Origin: Arcobacter sp.
GTDB lineage: Bacteria > Campylobacterota > Campylobacteria > Campylobacterales > Arcobacteraceae
Direction: 5' to 3'
NCBI GenBank assembly: GCA_020048055.1
Contig: JAIFNA010000003.1
Span: forward strand, 124,001 to 188,000
DNA length: 64,000 nt
A model generated the notes under the pieces. That model did no database searches and was not told where the DNA came from. It saw only the letters and a list, made by a program, of their open reading frames with translations. This document shows positions 37,823 to 43,109 of this stretch, piece after piece (the first letter of the stretch is position 1; each line of letters starts with the position of its first letter). The translations under genes and the position numbers were made by a program.

Positions 37823-37856
37823 TTGTTACCCAATTGTAACTACCTTGAGATACCCT
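37823..37856 (+). promoter_or_regulatory. 11-base-period repeat upstream of the RMD1-family gene
   Basis: TTGTTAC (37823-37829) and TTGTAAC (37834-37840) are spaced exactly 11 bases, then 10 bases separate them from TACCCT (37851-37856), a weak -10. The layout of two direct repeats followed by about 10 bases and a -10 box is the one of PhoB-type activators. The two copies also read as a GTTAC/GTAAC palindrome. Compare the sites at 38694 and 43057. Confidence 0.35.
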
Positions 37857-37883: not shown

Positions 37884-38687
37884 ATGGAAAATAAAATCCA
37901 ACAAGATATATTATTTGTGGCTGTTGAAATCCCAACAACCATACAAAGAGGTGATTTAGAAAAAGAGTTTCCAACTCTTATTTTGACAAATATAGAAAAT
38001 TCACTAGTTGGTGAAGTTGCAAACAATAAATTTTTATTTGCTTCATCATTTGGTGTTTTAACTTTTTGCAACTTTAGTCACAACGAAATAAAATCAATTC
38101 TGGCTAGATTAAATATCAAAGATGCAAACAATTACGAAACAGCGCTTATAAATCAAGATTATCCGATGATTTTGGATAATAATTTCCAAAAGCCAGAGAT
38201 AGATGCAAACACAATCAAATACAATAAATTTGACAAATCGATAGCATCAATTATCTCACTCGTCCTTTCCCAAAGTGTTGGATTGGAAAAAAGGGAAAAA
38301 TCACTTGAAGTAAAAATGGGTGAGATAAAAAAGATTTATGAAAAGATAGAAAAACTACAAATAAAAGATAGAAAAGAGCTTATGAAATTTGCAGGAAGTA
38401 TCGCAAAAGAGAGGTTTGATATCTTAAACCAACTATATTTACTTGATAAGCCAGATATTATTTGGGACGATAGTGAACTAGAATCACTCTACAATCAACT
38501 CTCATATCAACTAGAATTAAAAAACCGTTTTGAAGTAATTGAATACAAAATAACTCACTTAAAAGAATCACTTGAATTGGCAACAGACCTTGTAAATCAA
38601 AAATCTAGTGAGTATTTGGAGTGGATTATTATTTTACTTATTGGGGTTGAGATTATTTTTACAATTTATGATTTTTTCATACGATAA
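37884..38687 (+). CDS. RMD1/YagE (DUF155) family membrane-anchored protein
   Basis: A 267-residue protein of the RMD1/YagE (DUF155) family. I start it at ATG 37884, behind AAAAGGAAAA, because the in-frame TTG at 37845 has no ribosome binding site and falls in the promoter repeats. Matches to the family are SIISLVLSQSVGLEKRE, a long heptad helix (KSLEVKMGEIKKIYEKIEKL), PDIIWDDSELESLYNQL near residue 200-216 and ESLELATDLVNQKSSEYLEW before a single C-terminal membrane helix (IIILLIGVEIIFTIYDF). Function in bacteria is unknown; fungal and human relatives act in mitochondria. olsF follows after 62 bases. Confidence 0.82.
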   Translation: MENKIQQDILFVAVEIPTTIQRGDLEKEFPTLILTNIENSLVGEVANNKFLFASSFGVLTFCNFSHNEIKSILARLNIKDANNYETALINQDYPMILDNNFQKPEIDANTIKYNKFDKSIASIISLVLSQSVGLEKREKSLEVKMGEIKKIYEKIEKLQIKDRKELMKFAGSIAKERFDILNQLYLLDKPDIIWDDSELESLYNQLSYQLELKNRFEVIEYKITHLKESLELATDLVNQKSSEYLEWIIILLIGVEIIFTIYDFFIR

Positions 38688-38693
38688 CTTTTT

Positions 38694-38728
38694 GTAATTA
38701 GTTCGTAATCATATTTTAATAAGATAAT
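38694..38728 (+). promoter_or_regulatory. Pho-box-like repeats and -10 of the olsF-like gene
   Basis: GTAAT occurs at 38694-38698 and 38705-38709 and the related TTAAT at 38716-38720, all on an 11-base period. GATAAT (38723-38728) is a good -10 box, with transcription starting near 38735 and the ATG at 38750. No -35 is needed if an activator binds the repeats, which is how PhoB-dependent promoters work. The assignment to a Pho regulator is inference. Confidence 0.45.
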
Positions 38729-38749: not shown

Positions 38750-40459
38750 ATGATAGATGTAAAACAAGAGATACTTGAAAAGTTTCCAAAGCTTGATACA
38801 AAATTACCGATGATAAAAAAATCAATTTTCAAACTAGCTCAAAAAATAGTCCATGAGGAGAAAATAAACGATTTTTTAAAACAAAATCAAGACTTAAATG
38901 GTTTTGAATTTGTTGAAGCAACACTTGATTATTTCAAATTTGACTTCACTTATGCTAGTAATGAAATTGAAAATATTCCCTCAACTGGAAGATTAGTAAT
39001 CGTAGCAAACCACCCACTTGGTGCACTAGATGGACTTTGTTTACTAAAACTTGTAAGCAAAGTTAGAAAAGATATAAAAATAGTAGCAAACGATTTTTTA
39101 GCTGGAGTTGAAAATCTCGACTCGCTATTTATAAAAATCGACAATTTCAAATCATCACAGACTAAAAAAAGTATAGAGCAGATTTACAAAGCTTTAAAAA
39201 ATGAAGAAGCAATTATTATGTTTCCAGCAGGTGAAGTAAGTAGAATAACCCCAACAGGGATAAAAGATGGACTTTGGCACAAAGGATTTCTAAAAATTGC
39301 TAAAAAAACTGAAAGCCCGATTTTGCCAATATTTGTAGATGGTAAAAATTCAAAAACTTTTTATACGATTTCGATTTTAAATAAAACATTTTCAACAATT
39401 TTACTTTCAGATGAGATGTTTAAACAAAAAGAGAAAAATATCAATATGAAAATTGGAAGATTGATAGAGTTTGAAAATATTGAACTTAAAAATAAAGACA
39501 CAGAGGAAACTATTAAAATCTACAAAAAACACCTCTATGGCTTAACAAAAGGGAAAAGTTTTTTTAAAACATCAAATCCAATAGCACATAGCGAAGATAG
39601 AAAAAACATCAAAAAAGAGTTAAAAAAAGCTGTGACTTTAGGCTCAACCAATGATGGGAAAAAAATATATCTTTTTACTTATATCCCAGATAGCTATGTT
39701 TTAAAAGAGATAGGGAGATTAAGGGAGATAAGTTTTAGAAAAATAAATGAGGGTGTCAATAAAAAAAGAGACACAGATAAATTTGATAAATACTACAAAC
39801 ATATAATTTTATGGGATGAAGATGAACTGGAAATTGTTGGCGCGTATCGCATTGGAGTAGCTGAAGATATTTACAAAGAATATGGATTTGAAGGATTTTA
39901 TGCTAATTCTCTATTTAAATTCAAACAACCATTTTTATCTTATATGGAAAATTCAATCGAACTTGGAAGAAGTTTTGTTCAACCAAAATATTGGGGAACT
40001 AGAGCATTAGACTACCTTTGGTATGGAATAGGAGCTTATCTTAAAAACAACCCACATATTAAATATATGTATGGACCTGTTAGCTTGAGTGCTAATTTTC
40101 CACAATACGCAAAAGAACTTTTAGTTGATTTTTATAGCACCTACTACCCATCAAAAAGAAAATTAGTTGAGCCACAAAATTCATTTTTGTATGAAACAAC
40201 AGATATTGCACTTTTAAATCCGTTTTCATTTGATGACTATAAAAACGACTTTAAACTTCTAAAAGACACACTTAAAAATATGAATGTTGTTGTCCCTACA
40301 CTTTATAAACAATACAGTGAACTTTGTGATGATGGTGGCGTTCAATTTTGTGGATTTAATATTGACCCACTCTTTTCAAATTGTGTAGATGGATTTATAA
40401 TTGTAAGTGTTGACAAGATTAAGGAATCCAAAAGAGCTAGATATATAGATACGATTTAG
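38750..40459 (+). CDS. olsF: Two-domain acyltransferase, OlsF-like ornithine lipid synthase
   Basis: A 569-residue fusion of two acyltransferases. Residues about 60-260 are a PlsC-type lysophospholipid acyltransferase with NHPLGALDG (87-95; the H-x5-D pair is H88/D94), and FPAGEVSR (158-165). Residues about 310-500 are a GNAT/hemolysin-like domain of the OlsB type: YVLKEIGRLREISFR, ELEIVGAYRIG and SIELGRSFVQPKYWG. OlsF proteins with this order make ornithine lipid alone: the C-terminal half N-acylates ornithine and the N-terminal half O-acylates the product. These phosphorus-free lipids replace phospholipids when phosphate is scarce. The gene has an AAGGAG site and its own repeat-bearing promoter. 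Confidence 0.75.
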   Translation: MIDVKQEILEKFPKLDTKLPMIKKSIFKLAQKIVHEEKINDFLKQNQDLNGFEFVEATLDYFKFDFTYASNEIENIPSTGRLVIVANHPLGALDGLCLLKLVSKVRKDIKIVANDFLAGVENLDSLFIKIDNFKSSQTKKSIEQIYKALKNEEAIIMFPAGEVSRITPTGIKDGLWHKGFLKIAKKTESPILPIFVDGKNSKTFYTISILNKTFSTILLSDEMFKQKEKNINMKIGRLIEFENIELKNKDTEETIKIYKKHLYGLTKGKSFFKTSNPIAHSEDRKNIKKELKKAVTLGSTNDGKKIYLFTYIPDSYVLKEIGRLREISFRKINEGVNKKRDTDKFDKYYKHIILWDEDELEIVGAYRIGVAEDIYKEYGFEGFYANSLFKFKQPFLSYMENSIELGRSFVQPKYWGTRALDYLWYGIGAYLKNNPHIKYMYGPVSLSANFPQYAKELLVDFYSTYYPSKRKLVEPQNSFLYETTDIALLNPFSFDDYKNDFKLLKDTLKNMNVVVPTLYKQYSELCDDGGVQFCGFNIDPLFSNCVDGFIIVSVDKIKESKRARYIDTI

Positions 40460-40467
40460 TCGTATCT
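40447..40467. other. Hairpin over the convergent stop codons of olsF and the small gene
   Basis: AGATACGA (40447-40454) pairs with TCGTATCT (40460-40467) around TTTAG, which holds the olsF stop TAG (40457-40459); the other arm reaches the stop of the convergent gene at 40466. There is no T-run, so this is a stem at the shared 3' ends rather than a standard terminator. Confidence 0.5.
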
Positions 40468-40726
40468 AGGCTGCTGTTACAAGTGTGAGATTTATAAGTT
40501 TACTTTTGTTTACTAAGCCTCGAATATCGATAATAATAAATTTATCCCAACCAAATTGTTGAGCTACATCAAACATATAATCTCTATCTTCAATATCTTC
40601 AATATTTAATAGATCATACTCACCATCTGCTGATATTAGTACAGCTTCATATCCATTTGCTTTTGCTAATGAAATTTCATTTGCAAATTGTTTTTCAATT
40701 TTTGATAATATTTTTGTTATGACCAT
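40466..40726 (-). CDS. Small unknown protein between phoX and olsF
   Basis: An 86-residue protein with no recognised family. It starts at ATG 40726, because a strong GGAGG lies 6 bases upstream in TACGGAGGTTGACA; an in-frame ATG at 40750 sits in a hairpin and has no such site. The product is soluble, acidic in the middle (ADGEYDLLNIEDIEDRDYM) and seems alpha/beta, with DKFIIIDIRGLVNKS toward the end. No Cys and no signal. It lies behind phoX on the same strand after a hairpin, and converges with olsF with 6 bases between stops. A role in the phosphate response is suggested only by place. Confidence 0.7.
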   Translation of the reverse strand: MVITKILSKIEKQFANEISLAKANGYEAVLISADGEYDLLNIEDIEDRDYMFDVAQQFGWDKFIIIDIRGLVNKSKLINLTLVTAA

Positions 40727-40741
40727 TGTCAACCTCCGTAG

Positions 40742-40767
40742 AAAAATCATAGATTTCTATGATTTTT
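40742..40767 (-). terminator. Hairpin terminator behind phoX
   Basis: AAAAATCATAG (40742-40752) and CTATGATTTTT (40757-40767) pair perfectly around ATTT. It lies between the phoX stop and the small gene. On the minus strand the 3' arm ends in five T residues. It may end most phoX messages or act as a partial stop that lets the small gene be read at a lower level. Confidence 0.65.
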
Positions 40768-40804
40768 TGTTTTGGTAGTTTAATACCTAAAGGTTACCCT
40801 TTGA

Positions 40805-43009
40805 TTACTCTGCGATAACTCCACCATCATTTTTTGTAATCACAATAGTTGCTGATCTTGGTCTTGATGTTCCACCATCAGGCCAGTGACTTTCAAAACT
40901 GCTTGGATTAGTTAAACTTGTCGTATTTTCCCCTGGATGTTGAATATTTACAAATATTGTTTTCCCATCTGGTGTTTCAGCAATTCCTGTAATCTCACAA
41001 CCTTTTGGACCAACTAAAAATCTTTTTAAATTTGTAGTTGAAGCATTTTTACCTTTAAAGGTACTAACTGTTTGATTTGTATTTCCATTACTTGGAACAC
41101 TATTATTTACGATAGAAACATTTGAACCATCCCCATAAGAACCAGGAAGAGCCGCGAGCATCATGCAGTTTGTTTCATCCGTGTATGCACCATCATCTGT
41201 TTGTAGCCACATCAATCCTTTTGTTGCTTGACTAAAAAACAATCCATCTGGACTTGAGAAATCGTTTTCATCTGTAAGACTTGAGATATTTATTGTAGAT
41301 GCCGAATCTGCTTCTGCTCCAAATAGATATATATCCCAACTAAAAGTTGTTGCTGCTCCATTATTATCTGTTTCTTTTAGTCTGATAATGTGTCCATTAA
41401 CATTTCCTTTTTGAGTTTCTGTTCCTTTTATGTCTGTGTAATATCTAGGATTTGCCGCATTTAATCCAAATGTTTCAGAAGCACCAAAACCACTACCGTC
41501 ATATGGGGCCTTTCCTCTTTGTGAGTTGTTTGTAAGAGTAATATATACATCACCAGTTAATGGATTTACACCTGTCCATTCTGGTCTATCCATTGGAGTT
41601 GCACCAACAATATCTGCTGCAATTCTAATATTTACCAATAAATCTCCCATATCTGCGAAGATATATGTTGCATTTGAAGCTATTGTGCTATTTGAAGTTG
41701 AAAGCAAAATCCATTCCCCTATTCCAGTATCACTAAATTTTGCCACATACAATTTACCGCTATCCAAATATTTATCCCCAATATCTAGTCCATTTGCAGT
41801 TGCATCATCTTCATTCCAATTTTGGTTTGAAACATACTTATAAATATACTCATTTCTTGCATCGTCCCCCATATAATAAACCAATGGTTTACCATTTGTT
41901 ACGATTCCAGGCATTGCACCCTCATGTCCCATTCTTCCCATTGCTGTTCTTTTTCTTGGCGTTGAAGTTGGATTAAATGGATCAATCTCAACAACCCAAC
42001 CAAAAGTATTTGCAACATTTCTATAATCATCTACACCAGTTGCACCTGTTGGTGTTGTGTTCCATCTATCATAAATATCATTAGTTGTTGTGGAATTTGC
42101 CCAGCCATAACTTCCGTTATTTGCACTTGAGCCCATATATCTATCTTGCGTTGCTTTTGATTTTGCATCAAGCGTACTACTTGCAGCTCTTTTAAAATAT
42201 CCAGCCCAATTCTCCTCACATGTTAAGTATGTTCCCCAAGGAGTTAATCCACTTGCACAGTTGTTTAATGTTCCTCTTGTTGCTGTTCCGTTAGTTGAGT
42301 ATTTAGTTTTAACTAAATCATTTCCACGAACTGGCCCATTTATATCCATTGGAGTTGATGCAGTAATTCTTTTATTAAATGTTGAGCTTTTATTTAAAGC
42401 AAATCCAGAATTCCCTTTTTGTATCTCAATAACTGAAATACCGTGAGCTGATACCTCTTTATCAATTTGGGAAGCCAATCTTGAACTTACATTATAAGAT
42501 GTTGCTTGTGCTTCAGTATGTAAAAATAACTGTGTAATATTTTCATGATTCATACACAACAATCCTCTTTCAGAATTGTTCATATCTTTTGATGTTCCAC
42601 TTGTATTCATACCAAAATAAAACATACCATCGTGATGATCTCCAGCTCTTAAGCTAAAGTCTGTGTCAGTTCCATCATTATTGTAAGATGGAACTAAATT
42701 ACTAATTGGGTCTCCAACTTTATATAAAACCTTCATTGAATATGTGTCTGGAATCGACACAGTATCATTTAAATTTTTTGCAACTGGTGTAAAACCAAGC
42801 AATACATTTGCAGCAGGTAAACTAACACCATCACCACCACAACCTGTAAAATTAAGCCCAAAGAAGCTTCCAGCAGCCACAACTAAGCCACCTTTTAAAA
42901 CTGTTCTCCTTGATAGCCTTGCCTCAACAATCTCCTCTATTGAAAGGTTTAGTGAGTTATTTTTTGAAATATCGTCTTGACCGTTTGGTGATGTTGGTGA
43001 ATTTTTCAT
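40805..43009 (-). CDS. phoX: Alkaline phosphatase PhoX, Tat-exported
   Basis: A 734-residue phosphatase of the PhoX (DUF839) family, which strips phosphate from organic esters in the periplasm with calcium and iron at its site. The Tat signal is visible: SRRTVLKGG at residues 33-41, then a hydrophobic stretch ending near a Cys (TGCGG). Family blocks are GLLCMNHENI, LTPWGTYLTCEENWAGYF, RMGHEGAMP and EWTGVNPLTGDVYITLTNN, plus SPDGLFFSQ and GPKGCEITGIAETPDGKTIFVNIQHPGE at the end. In Campylobacter jejuni PhoX is the main alkaline phosphatase and depends on the PhosS/PhosR phosphate sensor. Here repeats suited to such a regulator lie upstream. Confidence 0.92.
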   Translation of the reverse strand: MKNSPTSPNGQDDISKNNSLNLSIEEIVEARLSRRTVLKGGLVVAAGSFFGLNFTGCGGDGVSLPAANVLLGFTPVAKNLNDTVSIPDTYSMKVLYKVGDPISNLVPSYNNDGTDTDFSLRAGDHHDGMFYFGMNTSGTSKDMNNSERGLLCMNHENITQLFLHTEAQATSYNVSSRLASQIDKEVSAHGISVIEIQKGNSGFALNKSSTFNKRITASTPMDINGPVRGNDLVKTKYSTNGTATRGTLNNCASGLTPWGTYLTCEENWAGYFKRAASSTLDAKSKATQDRYMGSSANNGSYGWANSTTTNDIYDRWNTTPTGATGVDDYRNVANTFGWVVEIDPFNPTSTPRKRTAMGRMGHEGAMPGIVTNGKPLVYYMGDDARNEYIYKYVSNQNWNEDDATANGLDIGDKYLDSGKLYVAKFSDTGIGEWILLSTSNSTIASNATYIFADMGDLLVNIRIAADIVGATPMDRPEWTGVNPLTGDVYITLTNNSQRGKAPYDGSGFGASETFGLNAANPRYYTDIKGTETQKGNVNGHIIRLKETDNNGAATTFSWDIYLFGAEADSASTINISSLTDENDFSSPDGLFFSQATKGLMWLQTDDGAYTDETNCMMLAALPGSYGDGSNVSIVNNSVPSNGNTNQTVSTFKGKNASTTNLKRFLVGPKGCEITGIAETPDGKTIFVNIQHPGENTTSLTNPSSFESHWPDGGTSRPRSATIVITKNDGGVIAE

Positions 43010-43056
43010 CTTTGCTCCTTTTGTTTTTTAATAAAAGAAGCTTAAAACTTGATGGT

Positions 43057-43109
43057 TACATTTAAGATACATTTTTGATTACATTTTGTCTCTGTAATCT
43101 AAATGTAAT
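43057..43109 (-). promoter_or_regulatory. TGTAA-repeat operator region upstream of phoX
   Basis: Read toward phoX, AAATGTA occurs three times (43080-43086, 43068-43074, 43057-43063) on spacings of 12 and 11 bases. Two further TGTAAT copies lie in the other orientation at 43093-43098 and 43104-43109, again 11 apart. Five half-sites in 53 bases is far from random-looking. No clear -10 was found in the 47 bases before phoX. A phosphate-responsive OmpR-family regulator is the likely ligand, by inference. Confidence 0.45.

Follow-up and report, generated by a model that had tools for sequence, protein, structure and literature searches.

A predicted Pho box upstream of the ornithine lipid synthase gene olsF in Arcobacter-like bacteria

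The gene olsF in the 64-kb stretch of Arcobacter sp. DNA analysed here (the window) is preceded by two direct repeats, the half-sites of which start at 38693 and 38704 and keep the 11-bp period that marks a PhoB-type Pho box. These repeats are very probably a genuine binding site, as predicted from sequence, for a phosphate-starvation regulator. We consider it highly probable that they form the Pho box of a PhoB/PhosR-type regulator activating olsF in low phosphate, where the binding, the phosphate dependence and the lipid output are what we infer. And olsF is a predicted conserved member of such a regulon in the Arcobacter-like family, in which it would be bound by the regulator and induced when phosphate is low. 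The features concerned are the following.

38693..38709, + strand: Pho box of olsF, TGTAAT-TAGTT-CGTAAT, half-sites spaced 11 bp (base reading, footprint and matrix)
38720..38725, + strand: -10 element of olsF, TAAGAT, 10 bp past the second half-site (register kept as TANNNT in relatives)
38750..40459, + strand: olsF, bifunctional ornithine lipid synthase, 569 aa (NCBIfam NF052615, 804.9 bits, cut-off 620; Pfam acyltransferase and GNAT domains)

The source genome (G000) is Arcobacter-like, with 2.0 Mb in 18 contigs and a GC content of about 30%. Its gene downstream of the repeats had been taken for an ornithine lipid synthase in a preliminary description of this DNA, and this identification holds, the NF052615 match being at equivalog level and both acyltransferase domains being present. 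An uncultured Arcobacter MAG, at 72%, is one of the closest named OlsF matches; a match at 73% carries the label Desulfosporosinus, and this bin is probably mislabelled.

The main evidence comes from the relatives. Of 100 relatives, 56 gave an OlsF match, which in a few cases was weak or partial. The upstream DNA of 50 loci was used, and removal of near-identical upstreams left 44 as non-redundant. The element searched was GTWAY-N6-GTWAY-N10-TANNNT within 150 bp upstream of the gene. It is present upstream of olsF in 32 of the 44 non-redundant relatives and upstream of pstS in 26 of 30 cases, always with the -10 element at the same short and fixed distance of 10 bp past the second core, while each of the other repeat periods (6 to 18 were tried) and each of the other -10 distances occurs in only 0–3 olsF upstreams, and dinucleotide shuffles of these upstreams give 0.01 on average and never more than 1. 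Moreover, the 13 constrained positions are fully matched in 38 of the 50 olsF upstreams and matched with at most one mismatch in 44 of them, and in the site-anchored alignment both GTAAY cores and the -10 element stand out and the preceding columns have near-zero information. The full element is absent from some olsF orthologues, mostly those outside the family. The element thus exists, has one geometry, is conserved and keeps the company of phosphate genes, and the promoter geometry of PhoB type, which the preliminary description had proposed, is borne out upstream of both olsF and pstS. Since the same element with the same -10 distance stands before olsF and pstS in dozens of relatives, olsF is likely to be switched on when phosphate runs out. 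In one relative (G024, locus L029; G024:C1:420566-422093), olsF is separated from a copy of its usual Pho box, which lies about 1.5 kb away on the upstream side, by an ORF similar to an IS110-type transposase.

The pst cluster of the source genome was located via a PhoU match and has the order pstS-pstC-pstA-pstB-phoU; behind it lie a DUF455 gene and then the genes of an OmpR-family response regulator and a histidine kinase. The upstream regions of pstS (TGTAACCGCTTCGTAACC-N9-TATACT) and of the regulator gene (AGTAATTAAACTGTAACC-N9-TAGACT) carry the element with the spacing seen at olsF. The best NCBIfam match of the regulator is PhoB (TIGR02154; 170 bits, below the curated cut-off of 296.2) and that of the kinase is PhoR (127 bits, below the cut-off of 334); as the regulator misses the PhoB equivalog cut-off, it is called PhoB-like from its gene context. 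In the relatives, the regulator gene lacks the element, and autoregulation is therefore claimed for the source genome alone. The whole source genome was scanned by pattern, which with the fixed -10 spacing gave 11 matches versus 3 for the reversed-pattern control, namely at pstS, the regulator gene, olsF, the DUF155/RMD1 gene, a small ORF and a lipoprotein gene whose product resembles NAD and 5'-nucleotidases, together with four intragenic matches and one intergenic match without an evident target. The genome search proposed in the preliminary description thus gave the anticipated outcome, with the spaced repeats at pstS and at the PhoB-like regulator beside pstSCAB-phoU.

As for the regulator in other genomes, the pst-linked gene is present in all 23 olsF-carrying family genomes of a 61-genome sample, and the seven family genomes that lack it are all without olsF (Fisher p = 0.0005, a value without phylogenetic correction). 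Two genomes (G013 and G067) have pstS, with neither a regulator match nor the element before pstS. Another one (G074) carries olsF with the element, yet gives no regulator match at E 1e-60, and the link between regulator and element is therefore not absolute at this threshold.

The 64-kb window was scanned with a matrix built from the relatives only, and exactly four matches exceeded the threshold of 8 bits, those upstream of phoX (22.8 bits), a small ORF (22.0), olsF (16.8) and a DUF155 gene (12.3). The maximum in the reversed window was 6.5 bits. The four matches span 5.3 kb, are correctly oriented and lie each 57 to 83 bp ahead of a start codon, so that four transcription units appear to form one phosphate-starvation cluster here. 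All four are at the promoters of adjacent genes. The olsF site scores below most of its orthologous sites (lower training quartile 24.1 bits); by itself it is only fairly strong, and the case rests on conservation and on the neighbouring sites, which are given below with their genes.

37824..37856, + strand: Pho-box-like promoter of the DUF155 gene, TGTTACCCAATTGTAAC, -10 TACCCT (12.3 bits)
37884..38687, + strand: DUF155/RMND1-like gene (Pfam PF02582, 98.3 bits; ATG position)
40466..40726, - strand: small ORF for an 86-aa protein (similar proteins in G005, G007 and G017)
40777..40809, - strand: Pho-box promoter of the small ORF, AGTAATCAAAGGGTAACC, -10 TAAACT (22.0 bits; also a pattern match)
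40805..43009, - strand: phoX, PhoX-type alkaline phosphatase, 734 aa (Pfam PF05787, 436 bits)
43039..43083, - strand: phoX promoter, TGTA half-sites at 43083, 43071 and 43060 (spacings 12 and 11), -10 TAAGCT at 43039-43044 (22.8 bits for the pair 43071/43060)

The DUF155/RMND1-like gene appears, from its predicted promoter, to be under Pho control; the second half-site and the -10 element are kept in G001, G005, G006 and G007 of the same genus and in G008, and an exact copy of the full element was found at this gene in none of 12 cases. The 86-aa protein had no match in a Pfam search, and the box also lies upstream of its relatives in the three genomes listed. All four proteins have two alanines at the C-terminus, possibly as a degradation signal. 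In the small-ORF leader (40735-40770, - strand) there is a perfect AT-rich hairpin, AAAATCATAG-AAAT-CTATGATTTT, with a run of T behind it; this arrangement is attenuator-like and lies directly ahead of the ribosome-binding site. The phoX element of the window has one altered half-site (TGTATC), and among 60 relatives an orthologue of phoX exists in one only (G012), where the element also precedes it; footprinting of phoX was abandoned because the gene is too rare in the family (2 of 61 genomes). Upstream of the phoX promoter repeats, a perfect TGTAATCTAAATGTAA pair lies in the opposite direction (43093-43108, + strand), with no gene start that way and no fitting -10 element.

In eight relatives, the spaced pattern gave 110 matches versus 45 for the control. 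Among the genes preceded by the element are those for pstC, pstB, phoU, PhoH, a second phosphate-binding protein, a phnF-like regulator and ArsB (arsB), and also those for a calcineurin-like phosphoesterase, pyruvate kinase, a DUF6815 ATP-grasp protein and small proteins as well as olsF; the second phosphate-binding protein, pstC, pstB, phoU and pyruvate kinase were identified by reading their sequences. The pyruvate kinase genes of four relatives (L170, L230, L244 and L252) have the element about 60 bp upstream, which is unexpected for a phosphate regulon.

Three other explanations have to be weighed. The preliminary description had three 11-base repeats followed by GATAAT as the -10 box. Its motifs, two copies of GTAAT (38694, 38705) and one of TTAAT (38716), are all found where it had put them, the last one keeping the 11-bp register, and GATAAT is nearer to the TATAAT consensus than TAAGAT. 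However, only the first two coincide with conserved cores; the TTAAT columns (alignment positions 22-26, 0.05-0.28 bit) are nearly information-free in the aligned relatives, and the third repeat was dropped. GATAAT (38723-38728) follows TTAAT after a gap of 2 bases and not of about 10, and is 3 bp off the conserved register. Since TANNNT is aligned 10 bp past the second repeat in nearly all relatives, the -10 element of the window is most likely TAAGAT, and the arrangement of three repeats with GATAAT is unlikely. A mere accident would mean that an AT-rich genome offers TAAT-like repeats and that the function of the gene only makes them tempting. Plain TGTAA-N6-TGTAA is indeed common in the source genome (19 matches versus 11 for the control, too unspecific for a genome search until the fixed -10 spacing was added, which improved the ratio), and in 2 of 20 random Markov windows the top score (17.9 and 19.1 bits) exceeds that of the olsF site; but a single period and a single -10 distance in nearly three quarters of the olsF upstreams, against hardly any in shuffles, already refute chance, the probability of which we take as practically negligible.

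It is also conceivable that another regulator of the OmpR family, for example one for stress or the envelope, binds the element and that the phosphate genes are just some of its targets. Tandem sites with 11-bp spacing are a general feature of this family, non-phosphate targets such as pyruvate kinase exist, and the pst-linked regulator scores under the PhoB cut-off. Yet the most conserved targets are pstS, pstC, phoU, phoX, PhoH and the phnF-like gene, and the gene of the pst-linked regulator itself bears the element in the source genome and co-occurs with olsF, which makes a different regulator very unlikely. The phosphate-starvation interpretation of the preliminary description is thus supported by the element shared among pstS, the regulator gene and phoX and by its conservation at olsF and pstS, with binding and induction as its presumed parts.

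According to the Pho-box explanation, the tandem pair of 11-bp half-sites would accommodate a dimer of a PhoB/PhosR-type response regulator, probably the OmpR-family protein encoded beside pstSCAB-phoU and the PhoR-like kinase. When phosphate is low, the kinase would phosphorylate the regulator, which would then bind TGTAAY-N5-YGTAAY head to tail. The box, ending 10 bp ahead of the -10 element, would substitute for the -35 element, so the bound regulator is proposed to recruit sigma-70 RNA polymerase and to turn on olsF. Ornithine lipid would then replace phospholipid and save phosphorus. The head-to-tail dimer, the -35 replacement and the activation in low phosphate are taken from the PhoB model (PMC4415409, PMC3348028, PMC10294691).

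In E. coli, the PhoB pho boxes of pstS and phoE read TGTCATAAAACTGTCATA and TGTAATAAAAGCGTAAAC, respectively (PMC10294691). They are like the present box in the two tandem 11-bp half-sites with a TGTNA core, in the place near the -10 element instead of a -35 element and in the targets pst, phoH and phn, and the phoE site is nearly identical to the olsF site of the window. The two systems differ in the average core, which is TGTCAT there and TGTAAY here, in the gene list and in the PhoB-equivalog standing of the regulator. Other families also seem to have TGTCA-type repeats with an 11-bp period, as upstream of pstS in G061 (L140) and of olsF in a Helicobacteraceae MAG (L257), and the core of the box may therefore vary between TGTAA and TGTCA within the phylum. 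The olsF upstream of a Sulfurimonas (L255) reads TGTAACCTCATCGTAATC-N9-TATAAT. The PhosR box of Campylobacter jejuni is reportedly GTTTCNAAAANGTTTC, with GTTTC half-sites in an 11-bp period; if so, the olsF site would have the period in common and a different core, GTTTC being absent from it. PhosS/PhosR of C. jejuni is a phosphate two-component system from the same phylum, described as controlling pst and phoX (Wosten 2006, as cited in PMC3197622 and PMC9449129). Sulfurimonas gotlandica is rich in ornithine lipid, one study giving it a share of 40% among the lipids (PMC9789136). That PhoB controls olsF is already known from Vibrio cholerae, where the OlsF-type ornithine lipid synthase VC0489 is PhoB-dependent, induced and needed in low phosphate (PMC12186959); that case is experimental and from a gammaproteobacterium, whereas the present one is predicted and concerns a different phylum with its own box.

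A literature search in a limited collection found no paper dedicated to an Arcobacter Pho regulon. What is new here is the family-specific box consensus, the gene list, the predicted standing of olsF as a conserved regulon member and the occurrence of the box at genes of unknown function. On balance, it seems probable that Arcobacter-like bacteria possess a so far undescribed Pho regulon that uses a particular box, TGTAACC-N4-TGTAAYC, and would combine phosphate uptake and OlsF lipid replacement with perhaps the calcineurin-like phosphoesterase, arsenic export, pyruvate kinase and uncharacterised proteins (the 86-aa protein, a 70-aa protein, DUF155/RMD1 and ATP-grasp/DUF6815), and that four units of this kind make up a compact phosphate-starvation island in the window. 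The precise motif would assign uncharacterised genes, such as those for the DUF155 protein and the small proteins, to phosphate starvation, and phosphate-driven membrane lipid replacement can now be predicted, in concrete and testable form, for a group that is widespread among the Campylobacterota.
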